Position numbers and translations under genes: made by a program. Below, piece after piece: positions 2,378-60,798 of a stretch of 64,000 bases of DNA. The notes under the pieces were generated by a model. It made no database searches. It was not told the DNA's origin and worked only from the letters and a program-made list of their open reading frames with translations. Numbering within the stretch: the stretch's first letter is position 1; each line of letters starts with the position of its first letter. This stretch comes from Tenericutes bacterium RIFOXYA12_FULL_35_10 (GTDB lineage Bacteria; Bacillota_I; Bacilli_A; Acholeplasmatales; Acholeplasmataceae): positions 24,487 to 88,486 of the forward strand of contig MIDA01000105.1 of assembly GCA_001830045.1 (NCBI GenBank), given 5' to 3'.

Positions 2378-2573
2378 TAATCAATAACTTTGAATAATGA
2401 TTGATAGGAATAAGAATGAAATGTGTTTTTAAAAGTAATTAACAATTTCATAATTGGAAAAAAAGATGAGATGATAGATCTGATCTTTTTTTGTGAAATG
2501 ATGTGAGAAATGCAAAATTGTTGAAAAGTCAACAAAAAAGAGTATCATAGAAACTATGACTATGGAGGTTTCT

Positions 2574-18765: not shown

Positions 18766-20538
18766 ATGCTACTTAGTAAACACTTTAGAAAGTATTACCT
18801 CAAATACGCACTCTACTTTATCGTAGGGATTGCTGTATTGATTGCTGTAGACTGGCTACAGCTCGATATTCCAAAACTTGTTGGGGGGATTATCGATACC
18901 TTAAAACAGACTGATCCAGATGTAGAGATGATTGAAAATTCGATTATTCAAATCGGAATTTTAGCAGCTTCAATAACTTTGGGTCGTTTTTTGTGGCGCT
19001 ACACCATTTTTGGAGCGTCAAGACGTATAGAATACGAACTAAGAAATGTGATGTTCGGACATGCTACCAAACTTTCTCAAAGCTTCTATAGCCAAGAAAA
19101 AGTGGGTGGGTTAATGACCTATTTCATTAACGACTTAGAAGCGATTCGTATGTCATTTGGTCCTGGTATTTTAATGCTGATTGATGGACTTATGTTAGGT
19201 GGTTTTGCACTTTATCGAATGGCAGCATTAAACTTAAAGTTAACGATTTATGCCGCGATTCCGATGACTTTATTAACGGTTGCACTTGTTTTCATCAGAA
19301 AAACAATTACGAAGCGCTTTAAAGAACGTCAAGAATCCGTTGAAAAATTATCTGATTTTACCCAAGAGAATTTTTCAGGAATTACCGTTATTAAAGCATT
19401 TGTTCGTGAAATGAAAGAAGCAATGCTCTTTAGAACGAAGAATTTAGATTTATACGATAAGAACATTACGTTCATGAAATACATTATCGTGATTAACATC
19501 GCATTAGGGATCGCCTTAAACATGGTGATCTTAGTCATTATTATTTTAGGTTCTCTCTTAGTCATTAATCATGAAGATGCTGGTTTAACTGCAGGTCAGT
19601 TAACGGAATATTTAGGTTATTTCTTTACATTGATCTGGCCAACGATGGCTTTATCACAATTTATTAATATTCAAAGCCAAGCGAAAGCTTCTGCTGAACG
19701 TATAACGAAATTCTTAGATCATCCACTTGATGTTTCTGATGAACCTGATGCAGTTGAAATACCAAATTTAAGAGGTGCTTTAAAAGTAGAGCATTTAACA
19801 TTTAAATACCCTGACGGAGATGCACCGGTGTTACACGATGTCTCATTTGATATTAAAGCAGGTGAAATGGTTGGTATTTTAGGTCGCACAGGAAGTGGCA
19901 AATCAAGCTTGGTTGACCTATTCCTTCGTATTTATAACTTAGAACCGGGCATGATTTATTTAGATAGTCACGATATCATGAAGTTATCCATTAAATCAGT
20001 CAGACAAACGATAGGCTACGTTCCACAAGATAATTTCTTATTCTCGGATACGATTGTCAATAACATCGGATTTGCCATGGAAAATCCAAAAGAAGAAGAT
20101 GTTGTTGAACCCGCGAAGTTATCGGATGTCTATGAGAATATTATGGAATTTAAAGAACAATTTAACACCATTTTAGGTGAACGTGGGGTCACTGTTTCGG
20201 GTGGTCAAAAACAACGTATTTCTATTGCAAGAGCTTTGGCTAAAGATCCTGAAATCTTAATATTAGATGATTCTGTTTCAGCAGTTGATACAAAAACTGA
20301 AGAAGCGATTATTAAAAACTTACACCGTATTCGTAAAGGTAGAACAACTATTTTTATTGCGCACCGTATTTCAACGGTGAAGCGTATGGATAAAATCATT
20401 TTACTTGATCAAGGAAAAGTTGTTGGCATAGGTTCTCACAAGGAACTCATGAAGACATCACCACTTTATCAAGATATGGTGAAACGTCAAACGTTAGAAA
20501 ATCTCGTTCAAGGAGGTGCAACTAGTGAAGGACTTTAA
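18766..20538 (+). CDS. ABC exporter half-transporter, subunit 1
   Basis: ABC membrane domain; GRTGSGKSS Walker A, VSGGQKQRISIARALA, LDDSVSAVD. Confidence 0.92.
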   Translation: MLLSKHFRKYYLKYALYFIVGIAVLIAVDWLQLDIPKLVGGIIDTLKQTDPDVEMIENSIIQIGILAASITLGRFLWRYTIFGASRRIEYELRNVMFGHATKLSQSFYSQEKVGGLMTYFINDLEAIRMSFGPGILMLIDGLMLGGFALYRMAALNLKLTIYAAIPMTLLTVALVFIRKTITKRFKERQESVEKLSDFTQENFSGITVIKAFVREMKEAMLFRTKNLDLYDKNITFMKYIIVINIALGIALNMVILVIIILGSLLVINHEDAGLTAGQLTEYLGYFFTLIWPTMALSQFINIQSQAKASAERITKFLDHPLDVSDEPDAVEIPNLRGALKVEHLTFKYPDGDAPVLHDVSFDIKAGEMVGILGRTGSGKSSLVDLFLRIYNLEPGMIYLDSHDIMKLSIKSVRQTIGYVPQDNFLFSDTIVNNIGFAMENPKEEDVVEPAKLSDVYENIMEFKEQFNTILGERGVTVSGGQKQRISIARALAKDPEILILDDSVSAVDTKTEEAIIKNLHRIRKGRTTIFIAHRISTVKRMDKIILLDQGKVVGIGSHKELMKTSPLYQDMVKRQTLENLVQGGATSEGL

Positions 20539-22318
20539 AGATAACACTCGTGAACGTAGTGATAAAGAAGTGATTCGTCGTTTGTTAACGTACGGAAAGC
20601 CTTATAAACGTGAATTTTTCTGGATTGTCGTCATGATGATTGTATCCTTAGGGATTCAGCTACTTCCACCACTTCTGATCGGTTTAACCGTTGATACGGT
20701 GGGTAATGATGCACTCTCAAGACCTGAGAAAATTGAATTCATTATTTTCTTATCTATCTTTTTCATCATCGTTTTAGTTATTGGTAACGTTGTAGGATAC
20801 TTACAAGGGATCATGCTTCAAAAAGTAGGTCAAAAGACAGTTGTCTCACTTCGTGATGAAGTATTCAATCACATTGAACATCTCTCGATTGGACAGATCA
20901 ACCAAGTTCCTGTTGGTAAATTAGTCACCAGAGTGATTAATGATACCAATACGATCAGTGAAATGTATACCAATGTTGCAGTTAACTTGATTCGAAATGT
21001 GCTTTATTTATTTGCTATATTGATTGTCATCTTTATCATTAACTGGAAGATTTCACTCTTTGTAGTGACGGTTGTACCACTTGTTTTCTTAGCAACCATG
21101 ATTTTTAGAAAGTATTCAAGAACATCTTATCGTAAGGTGAGACAAAACGTTTCTGAAGTGAATGCATTTCTATCTGAAAATTTATCAGGTATGAAGGTGA
21201 CACAAATCTTTAACCAAGAAGATAAAAAACGTTCTGAGTTTAAAAATCATAGCGTGAAATTAAGAAACAGCTACTTACAAGAAATTTTAGTCTTCGGTAT
21301 ATATCGTCCAGTCGTCTACCTCTTTTCAATGGTTGGACTGCTCTTGGTTTTATATATCGGTTATCAAGAAGTTTTAGCAGGCGTCATTACTGCAGGTATT
21401 CTCTATGCTTACTATGCATACGTCGGTGATTTCTTTGAACCGATTCAGCAACTTGCTGAACAGTTTAATACACTTCAAAATGCATTTGCATCTGCTGAAA
21501 AAGTATTTGACGTCCTAGATACGAAACCAGAGATCACAGATGATCCAGAAGCTATGGATATGACATCGTTTTCAGGTCGAATCGAATTTAAGGATGTTTG
21601 GTTTTCTTACTTACCCGATGAATGGGTTTTAAAAGGTGTATCATTTAGTGTCAATCCAGGTGATACCGTGGCCTTTGTAGGTGCAACCGGTTCAGGTAAA
21701 ACAACGATCTTAGGATTGATTGTCAGAAATTATGAAATCCAAAAAGGTCAAATTTTAATTGATGGTATCGATATTAAAAAGATTACAAGATCCTCCTTAA
21801 GACGTTTTATTGGTCAAATGCTACAAGATGTCTTCTTATTCTCTGGAACAATTTTAGAAAACATTACACTTCGTGATGAGTCGATTACGCAAGAAGAAGT
21901 GAAGAGTGCTTCTGAATATGTTGGAGCGAACACATTTATTGAAACATTACCAGATAGTTACAATCACGTCGTCTTAGAAAGAGGAAATAACTTCTCAGCA
22001 GGACAACGTCAGCTCATCAGTTTTGCAAGAGCGCTTGTTTATAAACCAAGTCTTATGATCTTAGATGAAGCAACCGCGAATATCGATAGTGAAACTGAAG
22101 GTTTGATTCAAGAGTCTTTAGAAAAGATGATGAATATCTCTACGATGCTCATCGTTGCCCATCGATTATCCACCATTCAGCATGCCGATAAAATCATCGT
22201 CATGCAAAAAGGTGAAATCAAAGAAAGTGGAAATCATCAGGAATTACTTAAACTTGGTGGTTTATACTATAACCTCTATCAATTACAGTATGAAGAGAAG
22301 GAAGCGAATCCAGCATAG
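20525..22318 (+). CDS. ABC exporter half-transporter, subunit 2
   Basis: GATGSGKTT Walker A, FSAGQRQLISFARAL, LDEATANIDSETE; GTG 20525 spaced from AAGGAGG. Confidence 0.92.
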   Translation: MKDFKDNTRERSDKEVIRRLLTYGKPYKREFFWIVVMMIVSLGIQLLPPLLIGLTVDTVGNDALSRPEKIEFIIFLSIFFIIVLVIGNVVGYLQGIMLQKVGQKTVVSLRDEVFNHIEHLSIGQINQVPVGKLVTRVINDTNTISEMYTNVAVNLIRNVLYLFAILIVIFIINWKISLFVVTVVPLVFLATMIFRKYSRTSYRKVRQNVSEVNAFLSENLSGMKVTQIFNQEDKKRSEFKNHSVKLRNSYLQEILVFGIYRPVVYLFSMVGLLLVLYIGYQEVLAGVITAGILYAYYAYVGDFFEPIQQLAEQFNTLQNAFASAEKVFDVLDTKPEITDDPEAMDMTSFSGRIEFKDVWFSYLPDEWVLKGVSFSVNPGDTVAFVGATGSGKTTILGLIVRNYEIQKGQILIDGIDIKKITRSSLRRFIGQMLQDVFLFSGTILENITLRDESITQEEVKSASEYVGANTFIETLPDSYNHVVLERGNNFSAGQRQLISFARALVYKPSLMILDEATANIDSETEGLIQESLEKMMNISTMLIVAHRLSTIQHADKIIVMQKGEIKESGNHQELLKLGGLYYNLYQLQYEEKEANPA

Positions 22319-45461: not shown

Positions 45462-47207
45462 TTGCTTAAAACGTTAAAATATTTAAAGCCATACCGTTTT
45501 GGTGTGGCGCTTGTTTTTACTTTGGTTGCACTCCGTGCATTTTTAGATCTTTTACTGCCTACTTTACTTGGTAAAATTGTGAGTGAAGGTTTAGGACTTG
45601 GTGAAGTTGTGAGTGATCCTAATTTGGAACGCATTTTTTATTATGCTGCTTTAATGTTAGGTGCGACCATCATCAGTATCGTGATTACCATTTATGGTGG
45701 TTATTTAGAATCTAAAATATCTGCTGGATTTGCTAAAAACATAAGAAGAGCTGTTTATGAAAAGATTGAATCCTTCTCACTTCGCGAGATGGATCATTTT
45801 ACGACATCTTCATTGATTACAAGAACAACCAATGACATTCAACAACTTCAAGGAATTGTTCATATGATGCTTCGTATGATCATCTTAGCGCCACTTCTAG
45901 CTGTCGGTGCAGTGACATTTTCGATCATGCAAAATCCAACGTTATCGATGGTTTTAGTGGCATCAATCGCAGCACTTATTACAATGCTTGTGATTGTGTT
46001 TTCGATCGTCATGCCAAAATTTCAACTTGTTCAATTACTCGTAGATAAATTAAACTTAGTTACACGAGAAAACTTAACGGGTTTGCGTGTCGTTAGAGCG
46101 TATAATACCCAAGAATATCAAGCTAAACGTATTGATGATGCGTCCATGGAATCCATGAGATTAAACATCTTTGTTAACCGCGTATCGTCCATTATGTGGC
46201 CATTTATGGGTCTCATTATGGGTGTTACGAGTTTAACGATTGTTTATTTAGGTGCACGATTCTTTGTGGGTTTAAACGGGTTTTCTCCTGCATCTTTAAT
46301 GGCACTCATGCAGTATGCAATGAGAGCGATTATGGCATTTATGTTTATGTCATTTATTTTCGTGAGTATTCCTAGAGCATCCATTTCTGCGAAACGTATT
46401 ATGGAAGTTTTAGAAATGGATAATCAAATTAAAGATCCGGTAAATCCAGTGACTTTACCTGAAAAAATTGTAGGAAACATTGAATTTAAAGATGTTTGTT
46501 TCCAATACCCAGATGCACAAGAACCTGTGTTATCCCATATATCATTTAAAGTGAAAGCTGGCTCTACAACGGCATTTATCGGTTCAACAGGTTCAGGTAA
46601 ATCAACACTCATTAATTTAATTCCACGCTTTTATGAATGCAGTTGTGGAACGATTACTATCGATGGTATCAACATTAAAGAAATGACACAACAAGACCTT
46701 CATGGCTTAATCGGTTATGTGCCACAAAAAGGAATTTTATTTGGTGGAACCATTAGAGAAAATATTTTGTTTGCTGAACATGCAGATCCAAATGCATTGG
46801 AAGAAGCTGCAGAAATAGCACAAGCCCATGATTTTATTTCTGAAATGGAAGATGGTTATGACCATAACATTGCTCAGGGTGGAACAAACGTATCTGGTGG
46901 ACAACGTCAACGCTTATCGATTGCGAGAGCAATTGCTAAAAAACCACCGATTTATATTTTCGATGATTCTTTTTCAGCACTTGATTATAAAACAGACCAA
47001 AAGTTAAGAAGAATGCTCAATGAAAGAGTCACTTCGACAAAACTGATTGTTGCACAACGTATTAATACCATTAGACATGCCGATCAAATCATCGTTTTAG
47101 ATGTAGGAACGATTGTTGGTATGGGTACGCATGATGAACTCATGAAGACCTCCAAGGTTTACCAAGAAATTGCATCGTCACAACTTTCGAAGGAGGAACT
47201 CGCATGA
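45462..47207 (+). CDS. ABC exporter half-transporter, subunit 1
   Basis: GSTGSGKST Walker A, VSGGQRQRLSIARAIA; TTG start. Confidence 0.92.
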   Translation: MLKTLKYLKPYRFGVALVFTLVALRAFLDLLLPTLLGKIVSEGLGLGEVVSDPNLERIFYYAALMLGATIISIVITIYGGYLESKISAGFAKNIRRAVYEKIESFSLREMDHFTTSSLITRTTNDIQQLQGIVHMMLRMIILAPLLAVGAVTFSIMQNPTLSMVLVASIAALITMLVIVFSIVMPKFQLVQLLVDKLNLVTRENLTGLRVVRAYNTQEYQAKRIDDASMESMRLNIFVNRVSSIMWPFMGLIMGVTSLTIVYLGARFFVGLNGFSPASLMALMQYAMRAIMAFMFMSFIFVSIPRASISAKRIMEVLEMDNQIKDPVNPVTLPEKIVGNIEFKDVCFQYPDAQEPVLSHISFKVKAGSTTAFIGSTGSGKSTLINLIPRFYECSCGTITIDGINIKEMTQQDLHGLIGYVPQKGILFGGTIRENILFAEHADPNALEEAAEIAQAHDFISEMEDGYDHNIAQGGTNVSGGQRQRLSIARAIAKKPPIYIFDDSFSALDYKTDQKLRRMLNERVTSTKLIVAQRINTIRHADQIIVLDVGTIVGMGTHDELMKTSKVYQEIASSQLSKEELA

Positions 47208-49096
47208 ACCAAGATCGCGCAAAAACTTCTTCGCAAGATGAAAAACCCATATTAAGAGGTCCTCGTGGTATGACCTATATGGGTAAACCTCAAGACTTTA
47301 AAGGCACGATGAAAAAATTACTTCGGTATTTACGCCCTTATGCATTCCAAGTGATTGGTGCCGGTATAATGGCAATTACTGCAGCCTTACTTTCTGTTTT
47401 AGGACCTTGGTTTCTAGGTTTGATTACATCTGAGGTTGCAAGAGCATATCAAGCGGCAAATGGTGTTTTTGAAAGTATTGAATTTGGTTTAATCCATATT
47501 ATATGGGGAATCAATGTATCTATTGGTGAACTCGCATTAATCATTGTTGGTGTTCATGTGCTATCTGCTGGATTTAACTACCTACAATCATTCTTACTGA
47601 TTGGGATGACACAGCATTTAACCTATGGTATGCGTAAAGAGTTATCAGCAAAAATCAATCGACTTCCCTTAAAATATTTTGATAATCAACAGTTTGGTGA
47701 TCTCTTAGGACGTGTCACGAATGACGTTGAAACGATTAATACAACCCTAACGCAAAGTATTGCAGAAATATTTAGATCGATCGCATTAATTATTGGTATT
47801 TTCGCAATCATGATTTTCTTAAGCTTATCTTTAACTGCAGTCGCTTTAGTAACAACCATTTTATCGTTTATTGCAGTGAGAAAATTTGTTAAACTCTCGC
47901 AAGGATACTTTAGAAAACAAGCAAGTTCATATGGTGAACTTGCAGGTCATATTGAAGAGACTTATAGTGGTCAAACAGTGATTAAGATTTTTAATCACCA
48001 ATCGAAGTCAAAAGAAAATTTTGATCGTATCAATAATGATTTATATAGTAGTGCGGTGAAATCACAATTTATTTCAGGTATCATGTTTCCTGTTCAATTA
48101 TTCTTTGGAAATATTGCCTATATCGCGATTGCAGTTATTGGAGCACTCTTAGTATTATCAGATAATGCGATGATCGCGATTGAAGTGGGTATTATTCAAA
48201 CATTTATTCAATATGTTAGACAGATCAATCAGCCCATTCAACAGATCGGTAGTATTGCTAACGTTTTACAATCAACAGCTGCAGCTTCTGAACGTATCTT
48301 TAACCTTTTAGGTGAGACAGAAGAAACACCTGAAAGAGATAATCTTAAAAAACTTGATAAAATTCAAGGTCATGTTGTCTTTAAAGATGTTTATTTCGGA
48401 TATCAAGATGATGTAAATATCATTAAAGGATTTTCTGCAGAAGTTAAACCAGGTCAAAAAGTTGCGATTGTTGGACCGACGGGTGCTGGTAAAACAACGA
48501 TGGTTAATCTTTTGATGCGCTTTTATGAAATTAAGAGCGGATCGATCACGATTGATGGTGTTGATATTAGAGATATGTCAAGAAATGAACTTCGTTCACT
48601 ATTTGGCATGGTCTTACAAGATACATGGCTTTTTGAAGGTACTGTTAAAGATAACATAGTTTATGGATCTCCAGATAAGACAGAAGAAGATATGTTAAAA
48701 GCTGCTAAGCTAGCACAGACCCATCACTTTATCGAATCACTATCTGCAGGATATGACTTTATCTTAAGTGAAGGTGGCTCGAATATTAGCCAAGGTCAAA
48801 GACAGCTCTTAACCATTTCTAGAGCGATGTTAGCAGATCGTCCAATGCTCATCTTAGATGAAGCGACTTCGTCTGTAGATACCCGTACAGAAGTACTCAT
48901 TCAACATGCGATGGAAGCCTTAATGAAGAATCGAACAAGCTTTGTGATTGCACATAGACTTTCAACCATTAAAGATGCAGATATCATTTTTGTCATGAAT
49001 GATGGTAATATTTTAGAACAAGGTAATCACCAAGAATTGCTTGATCAAAACGGATTCTATGCAAAACTGTATTACAGCCAATTTGAAACAAATTAA
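47204..49096 (+). CDS. ABC exporter half-transporter, subunit 2
   Basis: GPTGAGKTT Walker A, ISQGQRQLLTISRAML, LDEATSSVDTRTE; start overlaps the upstream stop. Confidence 0.92.
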   Translation: MNQDRAKTSSQDEKPILRGPRGMTYMGKPQDFKGTMKKLLRYLRPYAFQVIGAGIMAITAALLSVLGPWFLGLITSEVARAYQAANGVFESIEFGLIHIIWGINVSIGELALIIVGVHVLSAGFNYLQSFLLIGMTQHLTYGMRKELSAKINRLPLKYFDNQQFGDLLGRVTNDVETINTTLTQSIAEIFRSIALIIGIFAIMIFLSLSLTAVALVTTILSFIAVRKFVKLSQGYFRKQASSYGELAGHIEETYSGQTVIKIFNHQSKSKENFDRINNDLYSSAVKSQFISGIMFPVQLFFGNIAYIAIAVIGALLVLSDNAMIAIEVGIIQTFIQYVRQINQPIQQIGSIANVLQSTAAASERIFNLLGETEETPERDNLKKLDKIQGHVVFKDVYFGYQDDVNIIKGFSAEVKPGQKVAIVGPTGAGKTTMVNLLMRFYEIKSGSITIDGVDIRDMSRNELRSLFGMVLQDTWLFEGTVKDNIVYGSPDKTEEDMLKAAKLAQTHHFIESLSAGYDFILSEGGSNISQGQRQLLTISRAMLADRPMLILDEATSSVDTRTEVLIQHAMEALMKNRTSFVIAHRLSTIKDADIIFVMNDGNILEQGNHQELLDQNGFYAKLYYSQFETN

Positions 49097-50172: not shown

Positions 50173-50199
50173 TAAAAAAAGAGGAAAAGGGTTCCTCTT
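50173..50199 (-). terminator. terminator of the minor-pilin operon
   Basis: AAGAGGAA aaggg TTCCTCTT with flanking A run (T run on the minus strand). Confidence 0.7.
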
Positions 50200-51346
50200 A
50201 ACTTAATTTAGGTGTCGTAAAGATAAACCCAATTTCACCTTCAACAGGATCTGTTGATTCGATTGAGACTTCTTCTGGAATACCATAATCATAGAAATCT
50301 TCATACGATAAATCAGGATTAGGTAAAACTTCGTTTTGTAAGGTAGGTGTTAGTGTTGTATAAACACCACCAGTGATATAAATATTGCCTTGTTGAGCGG
50401 TAAAGTCGTTGGATAAGAAGTAGCCATAACCGGTTGTATTATTTCCTAAAGTGATACTTCCTTCAGCAAACACAAATGTGGGGCGGTCAATACTACCAAG
50501 TAATGTACTTTTAGCAGTGGTTAAGTTACCACTGATATAAAGTGTTCCTTGAATGGATTCAACACTATTTCCTTTTCCAATAAGTGTGACATTGCCATTG
50601 ACGATCACATTTCCGTAGATTGTACTATTCTCATTCATGGTTAAGTCACCATCAATGACGAGCATTCTACCGTCTGGAACTGTTAAATTTTTGTTTTTAG
50701 GGATAGTTACTGATCCATCAATATACCAATGCCACCATGCTGTTGGATCCCACTGTGTTTCTAATGCGCTCGGTTGATAGTAATTAAAACCGTTTTGTGC
50801 GATTGCAAGTTCTCTAATATAATCAACAACACTTTGAAAATCTGTAAATGTCGTTTCTGGCGTAATCCATGGGAAGTTTGTTTCTATATAAGTTGGAAGA
50901 TAGCTCGCCGCTAAATTACTGGGAGTAACCATGGGACTTAAGTTAAACGTGGGTTCTTCACCGGTGTACTGGAAAATCGAATCATATGTATCGAGTGATG
51001 TCACAGAACCTGTGATATAACTCTGAACGGTTTTTGAACCAACTAAGGATCTCGATGATACAGTATAAAGGTTTGTACCATAGAGAACAATGTCAACATT
51101 CATAAGTTCTTCAAGCTGTAATAGATAAATTTCATCTAGGTTTTGATCTCTTGCAATCATGTAAAGAGCGCCTTTAACATTAGATACAGCATTGGCATAA
51201 GCTTCACTTTCTTCAATTTGGATATCAGATAACCTTGCTTGAAAGAAGATGTACGACAAAAAGGTTGCTGTTGTACCAAGTACAAAGGCAACAATCGCGA
51301 GTACAGCAGGTAATCCGATTCCTTTTTTACTTAAGAGAAGCTTCAT
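50198..51346 (-). CDS. pilin-like (GspK/PilX-type) protein with C-terminal beta-helix/bactofilin-like region
   Basis: N-terminus KKGIGLPAVLAIVAFVLGTTATFLSYIFFQ lacking Glu+5; C-terminal repeats DGDLTMNENSTIYGNVIVNGNVTLIGKG...IQGTLYISGNLTT. Confidence 0.65.
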   Translation of the reverse strand: MKLLLSKKGIGLPAVLAIVAFVLGTTATFLSYIFFQARLSDIQIEESEAYANAVSNVKGALYMIARDQNLDEIYLLQLEELMNVDIVLYGTNLYTVSSRSLVGSKTVQSYITGSVTSLDTYDSIFQYTGEEPTFNLSPMVTPSNLAASYLPTYIETNFPWITPETTFTDFQSVVDYIRELAIAQNGFNYYQPSALETQWDPTAWWHWYIDGSVTIPKNKNLTVPDGRMLVIDGDLTMNENSTIYGNVIVNGNVTLIGKGNSVESIQGTLYISGNLTTAKSTLLGSIDRPTFVFAEGSITLGNNTTGYGYFLSNDFTAQQGNIYITGGVYTTLTPTLQNEVLPNPDLSYEDFYDYGIPEEVSIESTDPVEGEIGFIFTTPKLS

Positions 51347-51358
51347 GTATTTTCCTCC

Positions 51359-51883
51359 TTACGTCGGAATAGTTTCAAGTGTTAACGTTTGTTCATAATG
51401 ATAGGTATAGGTATTTAATTCGCCTACAAAAGTTAAATCTAAATTTAAAATGAGTTCACTACCGATAATTTCATAGGTGAGTGTCGAATCTGTTGCTAAT
51501 GTAAAGTGATTGATGGTAATTAATTCATTATCGATATAAAGTCTATTATTTAATAAAGATATGTTTAGTTCAAGTTCAGGATTGTGAACAACCAAGTTAA
51601 TCGTCTCATTTTCTAAATCAACCACATATTCAAAAGCGTTAATCAAAATAATGCAATTTGTTATACCGACACATGGAATATAGTTGGTTGCACCAAAATC
51701 TTGATAAGTATCATCTAAAAGTGATGTAAGAAGTGTCATTTCAGTGTTTGCTTGACTTTGTTCGACGATTCTTGCATTCGCTTTGGTAATGGTTGATAAA
51801 ATCATTGCAGATAACGATAAGACAAGACCGAAGATGATAACTGCACCGAGTAGTTCAACTAATGCTAGTCCTGATTTACGCAT
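51359..51883 (-). CDS. minor prepilin (N-methylation motif)
   Basis: RKSG|LALVELLGAVIIFGLVLSLSAMILS; overlaps the upstream minor pilin gene by 8 bp. Confidence 0.8.
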   Translation of the reverse strand: MRKSGLALVELLGAVIIFGLVLSLSAMILSTITKANARIVEQSQANTEMTLLTSLLDDTYQDFGATNYIPCVGITNCIILINAFEYVVDLENETINLVVHNPELELNISLLNNRLYIDNELITINHFTLATDSTLTYEIIGSELILNLDLTFVGELNTYTYHYEQTLTLETIPT

Positions 51884-52322
51884 AAATCACACCTTCAATC
51901 GATATCGTACGTGTTTTATAATATGTCACTGTAATGGTAAATGTGATGATCTCATAGGTTATAGAATTTGGTGTAGGTGCATGAAATGTGATGTAGATGT
52001 TTTCAGAGGTAATGTTATCTGTTGTTAAGTTATTGATGACATCACAATTAACAGGTGAACTGATTGCTAAACAGGAGACATCATCAATTGTTCTTTCTTC
52101 ACTACCTAACCAAACTGAAAGTGAACTATAGGTTTCACTTCGAATGAGTTCATCACGTATGGATGATGCAATATCAACGGCTAACCGCTTGTTTTCGGTT
52201 GCAATCGTTTGGTTTCTCATAGTTGTAATCGTCGCAATTGCAGTCGTAAAAACGAGTGCGATAATCGCAACCGATGCAATCGCTTCAAGCATTGAAAATC
52301 CAAAACGGTTTAAAATCCTCAT
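51876..52322 (-). CDS. minor prepilin (N-methylation motif)
   Basis: NRFG|FSMLEAIASVAIIALVFTTAIATI; first gene of the minus-strand operon. Confidence 0.8.
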   Translation of the reverse strand: MRILNRFGFSMLEAIASVAIIALVFTTAIATITTMRNQTIATENKRLAVDIASSIRDELIRSETYSSLSVWLGSEERTIDDVSCLAISSPVNCDVINNLTTDNITSENIYITFHAPTPNSITYEIITFTITVTYYKTRTISIEGVIYA

Positions 52323-52345
52323 AACATGCATCCTCCTCTATTTTC

Positions 52346-52351
52346 ATTATA
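52346..52351 (-). promoter_or_regulatory. -10 element for the minor-pilin operon
   Basis: TATAAT on the minus strand about 24 bp before ATG 52322; no good -35 seen. Confidence 0.45.
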
Positions 52352-52446
52352 TACGATAAACCTACAAGGGTACGCCTTAAGATATTACAAATCCCTTAAG
52401 TTTTAAAGAAAATGATACCGACAATCAAACGAAATAACATGATTTT

Positions 52447-52455
52447 TGCTATAAT
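52447..52455 (+). promoter_or_regulatory. extended -10 promoter for the T4P operon
   Basis: TGCTATAAT (TGn extended -10) 24 bp before ATG 52479; no good -35 seen. Confidence 0.55.
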
Positions 52456-52478
52456 GGGGCTAGATTGAGGTGAACAGC

Positions 52479-53669
52479 ATGAAAAGTATCTCTTTATACT
52501 TAAAAAGAAATCTCTATTTTATCCTCTCTATCTTTGCACTTTTTTCGACGGTTGTTTTAGCTGTCGTCTTACTTTTAGTTCTTGACTTAAGTAGAGACGT
52601 ATCAAAAACCTCTGTCGGTTTTATTTATTTAGGAGCATCCGAAGTAAGTGATTATGAGAGTGTTTTAGCACCACGTATAGCTCAGTGGCAAGATACAGCT
52701 GATTATACACTAACATATCAAGAATATGAGTGGCAGATTGACTTAACTCATTTTGAATTTGATCTCAATCAAACATTAACAGAGATTAAAGAAAATCAAA
52801 ACAATGACGCATATTTTACCTTATCTGAGGTTAATCGAGATTTATTGATTTCAGAGCTGACTGAAGATTTGACACCACTCATCATTTCAAGCTTTGATGA
52901 AGATTCCTTCTTATCTGAATTAGAAAATGATTTGCGTGTTCTAAAAAATCGTAAGTCGTATGAACTTAAAGATTATCTTGATGCAGAAATCGCATCCACA
53001 ACCATTGATCAAGTCGATATGGATGATATTCCTGTAGATATTGTTTCAGAAATTTCATCAGTTTTATCCGAATTTGTCATTTCTGCACAGTCAAGATTTT
53101 ATTTAATAGAAGCACTAGATACATACTCATTATCGAACGAAGCATTATCAGTCATCGCATCTGCACTTCAATACATGACTGTAAAAACACCTGTTGAAGG
53201 TTATATTTATCAAGAATTTGATGAAAGACCGATTTGGTCTGGACTTGGCATGAGTGCACGTGTATTAGCTTTAAATGGTTATGATTTCTCATTTTTTAAT
53301 CCAAGACAAGAAGAAATGCGTGTAACCATCGAAGTTTTAGATACAAATACACTTAGATTTACACTCAAAGGATACCCTTTTTTAACAACCTATGAACGCA
53401 TCATTGAATTAGGACCAACGATTTATTATCACGTGATCACAAACGATAATCCGTTGCTTAATGAATTATCTGAAGGTGTAATCATCACAGATACAGAAAC
53501 AGAAACCATATATGAAGTTGTTATCGTTACGGGTGTTCATGGCCATGTAACTTATATTAAGCGCCGTGTGACACCACTAGGTGGAACATATAGTGATTAC
53601 ACATTGTTTTATGAACAAATGTTACCTGTTGATCAAGTGATCGAACAAAACATTGTTCCAAAGGGGTGA
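52479..53669 (+). CDS. membrane-anchored extracytoplasmic protein, weakly VanW/PG_binding_4-like, first gene of the pilus operon
   Basis: N-terminal TM (NLYFILSIFALFSTVVLAVVLLLVL) then VGFIYLGASEVSDYESVLAPRIAQW...YEWQIDLTHFEFDLNQTL and DFSFFNPRQEEMRVTIEVLDTNTLRFTLKG. Confidence 0.5.
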   Translation: MKSISLYLKRNLYFILSIFALFSTVVLAVVLLLVLDLSRDVSKTSVGFIYLGASEVSDYESVLAPRIAQWQDTADYTLTYQEYEWQIDLTHFEFDLNQTLTEIKENQNNDAYFTLSEVNRDLLISELTEDLTPLIISSFDEDSFLSELENDLRVLKNRKSYELKDYLDAEIASTTIDQVDMDDIPVDIVSEISSVLSEFVISAQSRFYLIEALDTYSLSNEALSVIASALQYMTVKTPVEGYIYQEFDERPIWSGLGMSARVLALNGYDFSFFNPRQEEMRVTIEVLDTNTLRFTLKGYPFLTTYERIIELGPTIYYHVITNDNPLLNELSEGVIITDTETETIYEVVIVTGVHGHVTYIKRRVTPLGGTYSDYTLFYEQMLPVDQVIEQNIVPKG

Positions 53670-53673
53670 GCTT

Positions 53674-55332
53674 ATGGCACTAAGACGAATTGGTGATATT
53701 TTACTAGAAGCAAAAGTCATCACTGAAGCACAACTTAAAGATGCACTCACTAAACAAGAAAAAACAGAACGTTTAGGCGAAACATTAGCACGTCTCGAAT
53801 ATGCAACAGAAATGCAAATTTTAAAGGCTCTCGAAGACTCAACGGGTGTTCAGCGTGTTGCTTTAACCAATTTTACGATTGATGAACATGTATTATCACT
53901 TGTTGATGAAATGTTTTGTCGTAGACATAACATTATACCCTTACGTATTGAAGGAAAAAATATCTTATTTGCAACATCAGACCCCCTAGATTTCGTGGTT
54001 ACTGAGGAATTACGTATTTTATCAGGATATCGTCCTAAGGCTTTTTCTGCACCCAAAAATGAAATTATTTCTCAGATTGAAAAATATTATGGATTCACAC
54101 GCACTTTAGAAGCACTTGGTGCGCGTCAATCCATTTCAAAAGAAGAAGAAATTGAAGAAGATGTAGAAGATGATACACCAATGGTCAAATTGGTGAATCA
54201 GATTTTGACATCTGCCGTTTTCCAAAGAGCAAGTGATATTCATATTGATCCATTAGATGATAAGGTTTTGGTACGTTACCGTGTTGATGGTGTCTTAGAT
54301 ATCGTAAAAGAATTTCCGATTAAAATTCATCATCAAATGATCTCACGTATTAAAGTGATGTCTGGTATGGATATAACTGAAACGAGAATACCTCAAGACG
54401 GAAGAATTCAAACTTCGATTCAACAAAAAAATATCGATCTTCGTATTTCAACACTTCCTACGGTTCGTGGTGAAAAAGTGGTCATGCGTGTTCTTGACTT
54501 ATCTGGATCGATGAATAAAATTTCTGCACTTGGTTTTTCTGAAAAAGAAGAACGTTTAGTCAGACAAATGATTGATCGTCCCAATGGCATAGTTTTAGTC
54601 AGTGGACCAACAGGTTCTGGTAAAACGACAACACTTTACGCATGTTTAGAAGAGTTAAATCAACCAGATGTCAATATTGTTACCGTAGAAGACCCTGTTG
54701 AAATCAAAATGGAAGGGGTTAATCAAGTTCAGGTTAGACCTGAGGTTGAGTTAACATTTGCCAAAGCATTAAGATCCATTTTAAGACAAGATCCTAACAT
54801 CATCATGGTAGGTGAAATTCGAGATGTTGAAACCGCTGAAATCGCGATTAGAGCATCCTTAACAGGACATTTAGTCTTATCTACCATTCATACCAATGAC
54901 GCAGTTAAAACAGTAACACGTCTTCTTGATATGAACATCGAACCCTTTTTAATCGCATCCTCTTTATCAGGCATTGTCTCACAACGCTTAGTGAGATGTT
55001 TGTGTACAGAATGTAGTTATGAAGACGAACCTAGTCCATCTGAAGTGGTGATGTTTAAAAAATATGGGATGAATATTGATCACGTTAAACGTGCTAAAGG
55101 ATGCACTTCGTGTAATTTCAAAGGCTATGCAGGACGTGTGGGGATTTTTGAAGTCTTGCCGATCACTAAAAATTTCCAACGTCTGATCGCGGAGAATGCA
55201 AATGTCATTGAACTCACCAAACAAGCACGTAATGAAGGTATGATTACCATCTTAGAATCCGGTTTACAAAAGGTGAAAAAAGGTATTACAACCCTTGAAG
55301 AAGTGCTCAAGGTTGCCAGTGAATTGGAGTGA
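53674..55332 (+). CDS. pilB: type IV pilus assembly ATPase PilB/GspE family
   Basis: MshEN-like N-terminus; ASDIHIDPLDDKVLVRYRVDGVLD, GPTGSGKTTTLYACLEEL, VEDPVEIKMEGVNQVQV, LRQDPNIIMVGEIRDVETAEIAIRASLTGHLVLSTIHTNDA, CxxC...CxxC. Confidence 0.95.
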   Translation: MALRRIGDILLEAKVITEAQLKDALTKQEKTERLGETLARLEYATEMQILKALEDSTGVQRVALTNFTIDEHVLSLVDEMFCRRHNIIPLRIEGKNILFATSDPLDFVVTEELRILSGYRPKAFSAPKNEIISQIEKYYGFTRTLEALGARQSISKEEEIEEDVEDDTPMVKLVNQILTSAVFQRASDIHIDPLDDKVLVRYRVDGVLDIVKEFPIKIHHQMISRIKVMSGMDITETRIPQDGRIQTSIQQKNIDLRISTLPTVRGEKVVMRVLDLSGSMNKISALGFSEKEERLVRQMIDRPNGIVLVSGPTGSGKTTTLYACLEELNQPDVNIVTVEDPVEIKMEGVNQVQVRPEVELTFAKALRSILRQDPNIIMVGEIRDVETAEIAIRASLTGHLVLSTIHTNDAVKTVTRLLDMNIEPFLIASSLSGIVSQRLVRCLCTECSYEDEPSPSEVVMFKKYGMNIDHVKRAKGCTSCNFKGYAGRVGIFEVLPITKNFQRLIAENANVIELTKQARNEGMITILESGLQKVKKGITTLEEVLKVASELE

Positions 55333-55336
55333 TGAG

Positions 55337-56557
55337 ATGGACTTAAGAAATTATAAGTATCTCGCAACCAATGCCGATGGTAGGAAGGTTAAAGGAACGA
55401 TTGAAGCACTAAACCGTAATGTCGTTGTCAAATATTTACAATCAAAAAATTATACAATTCAAAACATCAGTGAATATAAAAATATTTTGACACAACTCGA
55501 TAAAATCACGTTTGGTAGATTACTCTCTCCCAAACAGCTCATTTTCTTTTTAAAACAACTTGGTTCACTCTTAAATGCAGGTGTCAAACTCATTGGTGCA
55601 CTTGAACTCTTATCACTTCAACAAGAAAATAGAAATCAACGAAAGCTCTATTTTGAATTGTACCAACAAATTAATAACGGTTTATCATTTTCAAAAGCAT
55701 TATCTAAACGACCTAAAGATTTTCCAAGTCTACTTGTTCAGATGGTTGAAGTCGGTGAACTTTCAGGTGATTTAGGACCCACAGTGATTCATATGGCAGA
55801 TTATTATGAAAATCAGATGAAGGTTAACACCGAAATCAAGGGTGCATTACGAATGCCTTTAATCTATTTAGCCGCAGCCATTTTAATTTCCGTTGGGATG
55901 TTGCTCTTTGTTTTTCCAAACATTACGGGATTATTCCAATCGTTTGAAGGAGCTGAATTACCAGCAATTACACAAATGTTTCTAAATGTTGGTAACTTTT
56001 TAAAAGCATATGTATTACTTATCTTTGGTGTCATACTTGCACTCATTATGACGATCTATTTACTTAATAAATATGTAACCAAAGTGCATTATGGATTAAC
56101 TGTATTTGGTTTAAAAATACCGATTTTTGGATCACTCATTCAAATGAATAATCAGATCATGATTGCTAATGCATTAACTCAAATGCTATCGAATGGGGTA
56201 AACTCTATCAAAGCATTACAAACGGTTAGAAATATTTTAAAGAATGTGATTTACCGTGAACTAATGGAAAAAACACTCAAATACATAGAAGATGGGAAAC
56301 CATTTTCAAAAGCATTTGAAGAAAGTAGTTATATTGATCCCATCATGGCAAAGATGATTGCAACCGGTGAAAGAACGGGTAATATTCCTAAACTCATGGA
56401 AAATTTATCGAAATATTATAACGGAATTACTGAACTTAGAGTTCAGCAATTAAAAAATTCGATTCAACCGATTTTATTGATTATTGTCTATGCGATTGTT
56501 GGTGTATTGATCTTAGCGATTATGTTACCGATGTTATCGCTTGGTTCGCAGATATAA
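55337..56557 (+). CDS. pilC: type IV pilus inner-membrane platform protein PilC/GspF family
   Basis: FLKQLGSLLNAGVKLIGALELL, ALRMPLIYLAAAILIS, second repeat MIATGERTGNIPKLMENLSKYY. Confidence 0.92.
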   Translation: MDLRNYKYLATNADGRKVKGTIEALNRNVVVKYLQSKNYTIQNISEYKNILTQLDKITFGRLLSPKQLIFFLKQLGSLLNAGVKLIGALELLSLQQENRNQRKLYFELYQQINNGLSFSKALSKRPKDFPSLLVQMVEVGELSGDLGPTVIHMADYYENQMKVNTEIKGALRMPLIYLAAAILISVGMLLFVFPNITGLFQSFEGAELPAITQMFLNVGNFLKAYVLLIFGVILALIMTIYLLNKYVTKVHYGLTVFGLKIPIFGSLIQMNNQIMIANALTQMLSNGVNSIKALQTVRNILKNVIYRELMEKTLKYIEDGKPFSKAFEESSYIDPIMAKMIATGERTGNIPKLMENLSKYYNGITELRVQQLKNSIQPILLIIVYAIVGVLILAIMLPMLSLGSQI

Positions 56558-56657
56558 TTCTTACATTTTCATTAAACATAACAGATTTACTTACTTTTCG
56601 AAATAATTAGTGATATGATGAAAGTAAAGAAAATAAGATAATTAGGAGGAATACAAC

Positions 56658-57089
56658 ATGTTCAAGATTTTAAAGAATAGAAAAGGTGTTACCCTTGTTG
56701 AATTACTTGCTGTTGTTGTGATTTTAGGTATCATTGCAGCAATCGCTGTACCTACAATTGGTGGTTTAATTGAAAGACAAGAAGAAAGAGCTGCAGAAGC
56801 TACATATGATACAATCGTAGAAGCTGCTAAGTTATATGCTGAAGATGCTACACCATTTACTTTAGCAACATTAGAATCAGAAGATTTCGTTGATCTAAAA
56901 GATAACGTGTTTGGTTTGAACTCAGGTACAACTGTTGCTACAAACTTAATTTGGGTTGTAGTTTCAGGTGGCAATGTGACTTTCTATGAAGATTCAGATG
57001 TCGATGATTCAAACCCACTTGCTATCGTATTAAATGGTGGCGCAGTAGCTGATGATATTTTTGTTAATGGTTTTGACGTTACAGCATAA
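56658..57089 (+). CDS. major type IV pilin-like protein
   Basis: NRKG|VTLVELLAVVVILGIIAAIAVPTIGGLIERQEERAAEATYDTIVEAAKLYAED; strong RBS TTAGGAGGA. Confidence 0.92.
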   Translation: MFKILKNRKGVTLVELLAVVVILGIIAAIAVPTIGGLIERQEERAAEATYDTIVEAAKLYAEDATPFTLATLESEDFVDLKDNVFGLNSGTTVATNLIWVVVSGGNVTFYEDSDVDDSNPLAIVLNGGAVADDIFVNGFDVTA

Positions 57090-57109
57090 TTATTTGATTT
57101 AAAAAACCT

Positions 57110-57143
57110 AGGAGGTCTTCTTTTCAGATGCCTCCTTTTCTTT
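57110..57143 (+). terminator. terminator/attenuator between pilin and pilD
   Basis: AGGAGG...CCTCCT stem with TTTTCTTT tail, inside the operon. Confidence 0.65.
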
Positions 57144-57157
57144 CATACGGAGGTATT

Positions 57158-57910
57158 ATGACAATCTTTTATAGCATACTCATGTTTATACTTGGTGCAC
57201 TCTTAACCTCCTTTTTTGAACTTCTTGCGGATAGAATCCCTAAGAAAGAAAGTATCATGGGAAGATCACATTGTGATCAATGCCATGAAACACTCAAATG
57301 GGTCGATATTTTACCAATCATTGGCTATTTCATCCAAAAAGGTAAATGTGCTTCATGTGGTAGGAAAATATCTTTTTGCTATCCTTTATTAGAGTTATTA
57401 GGTGGGTTTATCTTTTTATTCACTTATCTCTACCAGGGATTTTCTTTAGATAGTTTTATCATATTGATCATGTATACAGTGTTTTACATCGAATCAAGAT
57501 CCGATCAAAAACACATGATTGTCATCGATCGCATATGGATGATTGCAACCATTCCTTTAATCATTATGCGTATCATTCAAGGTACATGGTTGACCTATCT
57601 GATTTCATCAACCATCTTATTTACAACTTTATTCTTGATTGCATATATATCTTCAAAACTTTATCACCGCGAAGCATTAGGTGGTGGTGATGTAAAGTTA
57701 TACTTTTTCATTGGATGGTTACTCACTTTAACCCAAGGTTTTCTATCACTTTTTATCGCATCCATACTTGGTCTTATTTATGGTATGATAAAAGTAAAGA
57801 AGAAGTCAGAAGTATTCGCTTTAGTGCCCTTTATTGCACTGGGTGTCATCATCTCCTATTTTTATGGAGATTGGCTCATTGAATCTTATCTAAATCTTTT
57901 AGGGATGTGA
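57158..57910 (+). CDS. pilD: prepilin peptidase
   Basis: SHCDQCHETLKWVDILPIIGYFIQKGKCASCGRKISFCYPLLELLGG; LGGGDVKLYFFIGW (GxGD). Confidence 0.93.
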   Translation: MTIFYSILMFILGALLTSFFELLADRIPKKESIMGRSHCDQCHETLKWVDILPIIGYFIQKGKCASCGRKISFCYPLLELLGGFIFLFTYLYQGFSLDSFIILIMYTVFYIESRSDQKHMIVIDRIWMIATIPLIIMRIIQGTWLTYLISSTILFTTLFLIAYISSKLYHREALGGGDVKLYFFIGWLLTLTQGFLSLFIASILGLIYGMIKVKKKSEVFALVPFIALGVIISYFYGDWLIESYLNLLGM

Positions 57911-59367
57911 TGTTCATGTTTAACAAAAGATCAGATGTTTCCTTATTCTTTACCGATCAAGTGGTTGGTTTTTTTCAGCGTCATGATTTTTTAGATCAAG
58001 CTGCATATGGATCATTAGCGCTTGAAAAAGGTGCGATTGAAAATGGGTATATCAAAGAACCAGAAAGTGTTCTTGAAACATTAAAGAAGTTATTTGAAAA
58101 ATACGCAATTTTCCCAAGAACTATTACATTGATGATTCATGATCAAAATTTACTCATTCGCGATGTCAAAATCAAAAAAGAAGATATCATAAAAAAAACA
58201 ATTGATCAATACTTTAATGAGCAACTTGGTAAATCACTTCATTTGCCCTATCCTGAACCTGTGATTACACATTTCATTCGTGAGGAATCAGAAGAGATGA
58301 TTCGTGTGATTGCTTTAATCACAGATGGGCATCTTTTACATGCTTATCATGATCTTTTTGATCGATTGAATGCAAAAGAAGTTAAATACGAAATATCAGC
58401 CATCCCCTTTTACAATGTCTACCACAATAAAGTTGAACAACTTGATGAAGTGGTCATGTTTGTTAATCTTTATCAAGGGATGTTCTCACTTCAAATTCTT
58501 GAAAAAGGATTTCCAATCTTTAACCTGATTGAAGAAAATGATGGTGGTATTGAAGAATACACACTCATGATTGAAAACTATGTGGAAAGAATTGCAAACT
58601 ATTATAAATTTAATTTAAGAAAAGGCAAGCAAACCATTAAAAAAGTACTTGTATTCAATATGAATACTGAAGTTGATGATCGTGATATAGAATCATTGCT
58701 CATCAAAAAGCTATCGTCTTATAAAGCACATAACTGCGATTTTAACACAGATGAAACTTTTTCTAAATTATTACCTAAAGTTTGTAAACTTCCGTATGCT
58801 ATCTTTTTAGGTGAAGCAGATCGTGGTCAACAGAATATAGATTTCAAATTAGATCGAATTCCAAAAAATCGGATGTTTGGGCATCAGTTGATGGTTATTT
58901 CATTTGCAATTGTTTCAATCATGCTTTTAGTTTATATTCCTTATTATGCGATGTCTGAAGAAATCAAGATGCAACAAAATAACAATAATGCACTACAGAT
59001 GCAACTTGATATGCTTCTTGAAGAAACACCAATCATACCAGAAATTCCTGCAGATCAACTTGCATATAATCAAGCTTACAACACCATCTTAAATGAACTC
59101 GATGATGTGACTCCCTTGATGAGTAAACTACTTATGACACAAAGCAGTAAAGTGACCATTACAAGTTATCAAGTGAGACCACATGATAATGAGATTGTTT
59201 TGATGCTCCTCGGTACTGATCAAAATGCACTGTATGAGTATTTGCTTTTCATTTATGAAACTCATGGAATAATCGATGAAAAAACGGATACACGTTTTAT
59301 CACAGCACAACCTACGTTTAGAATCATTTCATCTCAGACAATGGAGGTGACGATTACGCATGCGTAA
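57910..59367 (+). CDS. PilM-PilN-like fusion protein (actin-like N-terminus, TM, extracytoplasmic C-terminus)
   Basis: N-terminal ~330 aa PilM-like (FPRTITLMIHDQNLLIRDVKIKKEDIIKK...), one TM (LMVISFAIVSIMLLVYIPYYAM), then a PilN-like coil/ferredoxin-like region. GTGATG overlap with pilD. Confidence 0.7.
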   Translation: MFMFNKRSDVSLFFTDQVVGFFQRHDFLDQAAYGSLALEKGAIENGYIKEPESVLETLKKLFEKYAIFPRTITLMIHDQNLLIRDVKIKKEDIIKKTIDQYFNEQLGKSLHLPYPEPVITHFIREESEEMIRVIALITDGHLLHAYHDLFDRLNAKEVKYEISAIPFYNVYHNKVEQLDEVVMFVNLYQGMFSLQILEKGFPIFNLIEENDGGIEEYTLMIENYVERIANYYKFNLRKGKQTIKKVLVFNMNTEVDDRDIESLLIKKLSSYKAHNCDFNTDETFSKLLPKVCKLPYAIFLGEADRGQQNIDFKLDRIPKNRMFGHQLMVISFAIVSIMLLVYIPYYAMSEEIKMQQNNNNALQMQLDMLLEETPIIPEIPADQLAYNQAYNTILNELDDVTPLMSKLLMTQSSKVTITSYQVRPHDNEIVLMLLGTDQNALYEYLLFIYETHGIIDEKTDTRFITAQPTFRIISSQTMEVTITHA

Positions 59368-59917
59368 GTATGATATTTTTGGTAAAAAGATTAGCCAAAT
59401 CAAATTCGTTTATTCGCTTGTCGTTGTCTTTTTGATTGCGATTGCAGGCTATTTCCTTGTGATTAACATTCAACAAAATAGACTATATGAACTCGAACAA
59501 CAAGAAAAAAAGATTCAACGTCAAATCGATACACTACTTGAAACTGATCAACCCGTTAACTATGAAGAGATCGAAGAACTACTTCCCTTTATTCCTACCC
59601 ATTTTGATCAATATCAAGTTAGTCAAGAATTACAATACGTTTTAAATGCATCTTCATTTCAAGAGGTTAATCAGTATAATGTCACTTATAGTATAGGGGC
59701 AGCTAATCCATTTGATGTGAATTTACCGGCAACGATTGAGATGGTGCGCATCTCCATTCAACTTTCGGTGAGTGAACCTGAAAAGCTGCTTGATTATTTA
59801 GATATCTTAAGTGAGTTAGACCGTTTCTATTATGTGGATCAAATGAATGTCACATTTACTACAGAAGGAGCTATCACGCAGATCATCTTATTTACATTTT
59901 ACAATCCAGCTGAATAA
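59360..59917 (+). CDS. PilO-like pilus assembly protein
   Basis: Short cytoplasmic N-terminus, one TM, coiled coil (NRLYELEQQEKKIQRQIDTLL), then an alpha/beta domain; overlaps the PilMN ORF by 8 bp. Confidence 0.65.
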   Translation: MRKYDIFGKKISQIKFVYSLVVVFLIAIAGYFLVINIQQNRLYELEQQEKKIQRQIDTLLETDQPVNYEEIEELLPFIPTHFDQYQVSQELQYVLNASSFQEVNQYNVTYSIGAANPFDVNLPATIEMVRISIQLSVSEPEKLLDYLDILSELDRFYYVDQMNVTFTTEGAITQIILFTFYNPAE

Positions 59918-60015: not shown

Positions 60016-60798
60016 ATGAATCTTTTTCTATCGATTGGTCCCATCAATTTTGATCTTTCATCACTGATTAGCTTTCTGATTGGTATCAGTTTTGGCTTTT
60101 TAATGCTACTCCTTATTTATGTTTATGCGGTATTAAAAAGTGTTAACAAGGGCTTAAAGTTACGTCAAACCGATGAACAAGATATTGATGAAGAAGAAAT
60201 CAAGTGGCTTATTCAAGATGCGATTAAGTTATTTAAAAATAAAGAAGCTCGTGAAGAAGCTGGATTTGCGAAACATCTTCTTGAGGTTAATAAAGAATTA
60301 TCTGTTGACATTGCTAAAAAGTTTTACCCGAAATCAAAATATCCTTATTTAGAATTAACTGTTGATGAAACGTTAATGTTAAATCATTATATTACAGACC
60401 GTTTTCAAGAACTCATGGCATCTTCAAGAATTTTACGTTTAACTAGAGGATGGACCTTAGCTAAAATTGTTGAAATGAATGAAGTGAAAAATAAAATTGA
60501 AAAAAATGCGATTGTAAAAACTGTAAAAAAATATTCCGGTTTAACCAAAGCTGCAGGTGCGGTGATGAATGCGGTTAATCCCGTTTATTGGTTTAGACGA
60601 TTTACAAAAGAAGTTGCACTTCAAATCGTCAGTATTCAAATTGGTATTGCCTTAATTAAAATTACGGGTGAAGAAACCTATAAGATTTACAGCAAAAAAG
60701 TATTTAACGCTGAAAAAACGATTGATATGGATGTTGAAGCACTGTATAACGATTTAAAGAAGGAAGTTAAAAATGTTGTCGAACAGGGGGACGAATAA
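60016..60798 (+). CDS. uncharacterised membrane-anchored protein preceding ftsK
   Basis: N-terminal TM (SFLIGISFGFLMLLLIYVYAVL), helical cytoplasmic region, second hydrophobic segment near the C-terminus. Confidence 0.65.
   Translation: MNLFLSIGPINFDLSSLISFLIGISFGFLMLLLIYVYAVLKSVNKGLKLRQTDEQDIDEEEIKWLIQDAIKLFKNKEAREEAGFAKHLLEVNKELSVDIAKKFYPKSKYPYLELTVDETLMLNHYITDRFQELMASSRILRLTRGWTLAKIVEMNEVKNKIEKNAIVKTVKKYSGLTKAAGAVMNAVNPVYWFRRFTKEVALQIVSIQIGIALIKITGEETYKIYSKKVFNAEKTIDMDVEALYNDLKKEVKNVVEQGDE

Follow-up and report, generated by a model that had tools for sequence, protein, structure and literature searches.

The stretch of DNA analyzed here, called the window, comprises 64,000 nt of Tenericutes bacterium RIFOXYA12_FULL_35_10 (assembly GCA_001830045.1, contig MIDA01000105.1, positions 24,487-88,486 of the forward strand). 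At window positions 50198-59917 a type IV pilus-like locus of about 9.7 kb had been predicted, which is confirmed by open reading frames (ORFs), domain searches, family profiles and structure models. All ten genes are intact ORFs at the coordinates originally proposed, and the sequence data support the view that the host is a wall-less mollicute with a full monoderm type IV pilus gene set. The locus consists of the following features:

50198..51346, minus strand: minor pilin p1, candidate GspK-like tip subunit (prepilin N-terminus without Glu5, pilin helix, C-terminal beta-solenoid)
51359..51883, minus strand: minor pilin p2 (prepilin motif G|LALVE; N_methyl E=0.02)
51876..52331, minus strand: minor pilin p3, GspI/ComGE-like (prepilin motif G|FSMLE; N_methyl 0.017)
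52479..53669, plus strand: VanW/G5-fold membrane-anchored protein (AlphaFold2 model, Foldseek, Kurthia homologue)
53674..55332, plus strand: PilB assembly ATPase with N-terminal MshEN domain (T2SSE E=1e-139, MshEN 1e-17)
55337..56557, plus strand: PilC platform protein (T2SSF 1.6e-48, full length)
56611..56619, plus strand: promoter-like extended -10 box TGATATGAT before pilA (recurs in relatives)
56658..57089, plus strand: PilA major pilin (N_methyl 1.3e-7)
57110..57140, plus strand: intrinsic terminator-like hairpin after pilA (AGGAGG..CCTCCT, then T-rich)
57158..57910, plus strand: PilD prepilin peptidase (A24_N 1.5e-26, Peptidase_A24 2e-12)
57907..59367, plus strand: PilM-PilN fusion of 486 residues (family profile, split homologues, membrane helix)
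59360..59917, plus strand: PilO-like protein with one membrane helix (position, topology, homologues in all families with the locus)

The likely start codons are ATG 52479 for vanW (GTG 52470 in the ORF list), 53674 for pilB (TTG 53653 in the list), 55337 for pilC and 57158 for pilD (57128 in the list). The tight stop/start overlaps of the original prediction are seen throughout most of the operon. The exception is the surroundings of pilA, a gene with a promoter-like site and a terminator hairpin of its own.

The identification of PilB, PilC, the major pilin and PilD by domain searches is beyond doubt. The best model for PilB is TIGR02538 (617 bits, E=4e-185, under the equivalog cut-off of 676), followed by GspE with 566 bits (cut-off 630), ComGA (NF041000) with 275 bits (cut-off 300) and the TadA family with 54 bits (cut-off 373). 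The best-matching chains in the PDB are PilB proteins, and the identity to orthologues of wall-less relatives ranges from 61 to 95%. PilC is encoded by a single platform gene of the PilC/GspF type. The locus thus differs from a Tad pilus, as its ATPase scores far under the TadA cut-off and it has one platform gene instead of paired TadB/TadC. In the PilM-PilN fusion, the PilM half is weakly recognized from the host sequence alone (PilM_2 0.043). At the family level the assignment is firm: PF11104 is matched by 11 of 17 members (best 3e-7), and a search of the PDB with the family profile yields Myxococcus xanthus PilM (3jc8) at 2e-8. A membrane helix (about residues 328-346) divides the PilM part from the C-terminal part, which aligns with genes that stand alone immediately downstream of a separate PilM gene; these occur in rumen family f2, in family f16 and in one f24 genome. 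On these grounds the predicted fusion is correctly identified, with the split state present in sister lineages. It is not specific to wall-less cells, since walled Kurthia also has PilM and a weak PilN match within one protein. The host PilO-like protein gives no Pfam or NCBIfam match and was putatively assigned by its position, its single-helix topology and its own family of homologues. With it, the set for the PilM-PilN-PilO alignment complex was counted as present.

The host genome (2.05 Mb, 94% complete), which was searched protein family by protein family, belongs to the GTDB genus UBA2284 (Peloplasma) of the Acholeplasmataceae and thus to the same genus group as Peloplasma aerotolerans M4Ah. 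The latter, also assigned to UBA2284 by GTDB, is wall-less as judged by transmission electron microscopy (PMC11122141), and its contig NZ_JASCXW010000007.1 (genome G006) bears a complete pil locus (L075). Neither FtsW/RodA nor a PBP transpeptidase was detected in any of 37 family genomes (the host and 36 members, many of them about 99% complete). Wall genes were found in none of the 23 named wall-less carriers of the pil locus and in none of 29 further carriers of families f1, f16 and f24, which overlap partly with the 23, and wall genes (PBP) are present in 9 of 9 pil carriers of the walled families f7 and f12. Genus placement, absent wall genes and the electron microscopy of P. aerotolerans bear out the assumption of a wall-less Mollicute relative. 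Two objections to a full pilus gene set in such a host, namely that the host might be an ordinary walled Firmicute or that pilB and the pilin gene might be pseudogenes, fail because the host is not walled and both genes are intact and under selection. Compared with the nearest relative, the ratio of nonsynonymous to synonymous substitution rates (dN/dS) lies between 0.02 (pilB) and 0.29 (vanW, pilA). These values are rough because synonymous sites are near saturation; being low, they speak against neutral decay and indicate purifying selection on the locus.

As far as remote homology and fold are concerned, the label "VanW-like" for the product of the first gene of the operon was correct. The protein has no Pfam or NCBIfam match, and no member of its family exceeds the Pfam VanW threshold. 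The family profile picks up a Kurthia protein from the corresponding operon position in which VanW and G5 domains are clearly recognizable, and for the AlphaFold2 model of the host protein (mean pLDDT 91) the Foldseek ranks 1-16 are all G5-containing proteins (SasG, Aap, RpfB, HP0197, IgA1 protease). The protein belongs to the VanW/G5 type, has diverged, and is anchored in the membrane at its N-terminus. Pfam domain detection likewise fails for most orthologues of walled f7 and f12, and the loss of Pfam-detectable VanW/G5 domains is therefore not special to wall-less hosts.

The three genes on the minus strand, which had been taken for minor pilin-like subunits, all encode prepilin-type N-termini, that of p1 without Glu5. 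This residue is absent in 14 of 14 homologues of p1, is found in 12 of the 13 listed homologues of p2 (the remaining one was called with a truncated start) and is conserved in p3, which shows weak similarity to GspI (0.0018) and ComGE (0.0027). p1 is not directly recognized by Pfam or NCBIfam. In its AlphaFold2 model (pLDDT 87), the helix and head of a pilin precede a beta-solenoid at about residues 207-330, and its weak Foldseek matches are beta-helix proteins, including the competence pilin ComZ (E=3) and tapirin adhesin domains. GspK, the tip pseudopilin of type II systems, also lacks Glu5. From this feature of p1 and the resemblance of p3 to GspI/ComGE we infer an I-J-K-like tip order of p3, p2 and p1.

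The major pilin PilA has a prepilin signal and Glu5, with a conserved N-terminus and a variable C-terminus, and the corresponding prepilin peptidase is present. The gap of 100 bases upstream of pilA contains the extended -10 box listed above; in close relatives, TTGACA-like boxes are often found 17-18 bases ahead of this site. A generic promoter scan, which performed no better than on shuffled sequences, did not flag it. The hairpin behind pilA (-11.7 kcal/mol, z -1.56) is not significant by itself, and relatives have hairpins of different sequence in the same position. Both signals were accepted because they recur in position among relatives and not because of a single-sequence score. A separately promoted and terminated pilA suggests an abundant major pilin. 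In one locus of the rumen family f2, the region between pilA and pilD encodes a protein that resembles O-antigen ligases (Wzy_C, E=3e-18; L100:8117-9514) and may glycosylate the pilin. In L082 (11327-12142), the pilA ORF extends to 271 residues into an N-terminally shortened pilD, which probably reflects either a frameshift in the bin or a fused gene.

No PilT was detected, as the host has exactly one T2SSE-family protein over the cut-off. The same holds for all 23 named wall-less carriers, none of which has a second T2SSE ATPase. Kurthia has a second, shorter ATPase (PilT) between pilB and pilC. The idea that PilT was lost along with the wall was rejected: walled f7 genomes contain PilB only, the main operons of f7 and f12 are also without PilT, and the extra T2SSE proteins of f12 adjoin a PilC/ComGB-like gene in several loci and have a ComGA-like appearance. 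The absence of PilT is thus a feature of the lineage and not a result of wall loss.

The idea that the divergent layout of the locus is non-canonical was rejected, as the same arrangement is usual in walled Bacilli (Kurthia and f12 among the loci compared) and is therefore retained rather than new. The order of the locus is conserved across the genus; in part of the genus (L080, L082, also L059 and L060), the minor-pilin block is inverted and points in the same direction as the main operon. The departures from the ordinary layout are the PilM-PilN fusion, the missing PilT, the separately promoted and terminated pilA and the Glu5-less solenoid tip-type pilin. Among known systems, the monoderm type IVa pilus loci of walled Bacilli and Clostridia (Kurthia gibsonii L104; f7, f12) show the same vanW-pilB-pilC-pilin-pilM/N-pilO series, a PilB of the same type, a VanW-family protein before pilB and, in Kurthia and f12, minor pilins on the opposite strand. 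They differ from the host, which has no wall genes and no PilT and whose VanW/G5 domains are not seen by Pfam.

Within the order, a PilB of any type occurs in 33 of 160 genomes: the genus accounts for 18 (out of 20 members), genus g15 for 5 of 5 and f2 for 3 of 3; the others are scattered, and some have a PilB of another type. The pil locus is absent from most other Acholeplasmataceae genera. A class-wide search with the PilM-N profile also detected it in f24 and f16 (all PBP-negative) and in f7 and f12 (all PBP-positive). Carriers include Xianfuyuplasma coldseepsis zrk13, a cultured wall-less Izemoplasma of family f16 (L117), and the complete genomes of MO-XQ and zrk2. In the pil tree, the walled f12 and f7 lie outside, and the sequences of wall-less carriers group together in a single, modestly supported clade (89/69). 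Pure vertical descent was rejected, since the tree does not accept f1 and f2, which are of the same order, as one clade (approximately unbiased (AU) test, p=0.008); at least one transfer between wall-less lineages is therefore likely. The simplest reading would be that an ancestral pilus of Bacilli was kept through wall loss and later transferred between wall-less families. A plasmid search with PilB gave nothing over 60% identity. In one genome bin (G014, L098/L067), frameshifts interrupt both pilB and pilC, due to sequencing error or decay. In two further loci (L066, L065; genomes G029, G042), a different pilus- or secretion-like cluster with prepilins, the order pilD-pilC-pilB and a PilB of about 41% identity is present; the genomes belong to a different genus of the host's wall-less family and to family f3.

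Taken together, we consider it probable that the locus encodes a monoderm type IVa-type pilus which a free-living lineage has kept after loss of its peptidoglycan wall, and that the pili are thin, adhesive and non-twitching. In such a machine, PilD would trim the prepilins, and p3, p2 and p1 would form the tip complex, with the Glu5-less, beta-solenoid p1 outermost. PilB would drive PilC to extrude the PilA filament, with PilM-PilN and PilO as a scaffold from the cytoplasm to the surface. The VanW/G5 protein, located on the external side of the single membrane, might anchor or gate the filament, which has no wall to cross, and the expression of PilA from its own promoter and terminator would fit the major filament subunit. 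As PilT is missing, the pili would be expected to tether the cells adhesively to particles or to partners and not to act as twitching motors. Adhesion is favored by this absence, by the non-motile cultured relative, by the solenoid tip-type pilin and by the separately expressed major pilin. Several points weigh against this interpretation. No pure culture of these organisms has so far shown filaments, and the description of P. aerotolerans (PMC11122141) speaks of single, non-motile cocci and leaves appendages unmentioned, the published micrograph being a wall/membrane view. Furthermore, the Foldseek search with p1 gave nothing significant, the lack of PilT alone does not rule out retraction, and the host has an intact comEA-comEC pair (L069:3711-6264, contig C59).

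The last point leads to a possible, yet clearly less probable function, namely a pilus mainly for DNA uptake that catches extracellular DNA for ComEA/ComEC, as genes or as food. ComG (ComM) pili resemble the locus in having an ATPase, a platform protein and pilins with ComEA/ComEC elsewhere in the genome, and they also work without PilT. The weak structural match of p1 to the beta-solenoid pilin ComZ points in the same direction, as do the cultured Izemoplasmatales that degrade DNA, one of which shares the locus (PMC8397711, PMC10470597). However, ComEC and ComEA-like genes are present in nearly all relatives with or without a pilus, so that no specific coupling is seen and the pair was rejected as a marker of pilus function. 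Moreover, the host ATPase is under the ComGA cut-off and has an MshEN domain, and the locus contains PilM/N/O and VanW/G5 and does not follow the comGA-GG order.

A short, type II secretion-like pseudopilus that exports proteins over the single membrane appears improbable. The ATPase, the platform and the I/J/K-like minor pilins are homologous to such systems, PilB and PilC also score well with the GspE and GspF models, and p3 resembles GspI; but PilB scores higher with its own model than with GspE (617 versus 566 bits), the locus contains PilM-N-O and no GspL/M (the search for these covered the locus, and secretin was not searched genome-wide), the pilA promoter and terminator suggest an abundant major pilin, and in a monoderm host that is bounded by a single membrane and lacks a wall there is no periplasm that would need clearing. 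That the locus is a decaying, non-functional relic of walled ancestors, as the frameshifted genes of bin G014 and the absence from most other genera of the family might suggest, is very improbable given intact genes in nearly all members of the genus, low dN/dS, retained regulatory signals and the apparent transfer between wall-less families.

Imam et al. 2011 (PMC3244431) used the Mollicutes, taken as a class without pilus genes, as a negative control for type IV pili. None of the words pili, pilus or pilin occurs in the articles describing the cultured hosts P. aerotolerans and X. coldseepsis or in that on H. nucleasis, which is of the same order as X. coldseepsis. A survey of the type IV filament superfamily leaves Tenericutes and Mollicutes unmentioned in its main text. 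No earlier report of mollicute type IV pili was found in the open-licence literature; one elsewhere is possible. The presence of a conserved pilus machine in several free-living wall-less families, some of them cultured, means that a bacterium with neither peptidoglycan nor outer membrane can retain it. The mechanistic surprise is tempered by archaeal type IV pili and archaella, related machines operating in cells that lack peptidoglycan; the host set differs from them in consisting of bacterial pil genes of Bacilli descent. It can now be tested what anchors a bacterial pilus in the absence of a wall and whether the VanW/G5 protein does so. The pili might also provide a means of attachment for cells believed to live passively on exometabolites and necromass.

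P. aerotolerans was obtained from a methanogen culture in which cells of Methanocrinis alkalitolerans bore thin pili of about 10 µm "of unknown nature" by electron microscopy (PMC10598746). The methanogen genome contains no pilus genes explaining these filaments, and its purification from the bacterium killed the culture (PMC10598746). We infer here a possible source of the unexplained pili: it is conceivable, albeit doubtful, that free-living wall-less mollicutes hold partner cells with long type IV pili and that the filaments of M. alkalitolerans are pili of its mollicute satellite P. aerotolerans, encoded by this locus.

Outside the pil genes, the window encodes, between pilO and ftsK (60016-60798), a membrane protein without Pfam match that is 64-86% identical within the genus and better conserved than PilM-N. 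Furthermore, three ABC exporter gene pairs are located at 2556-6189, 18766-22318 and 45462-49096, two of which adjoin MarR-like regulators.

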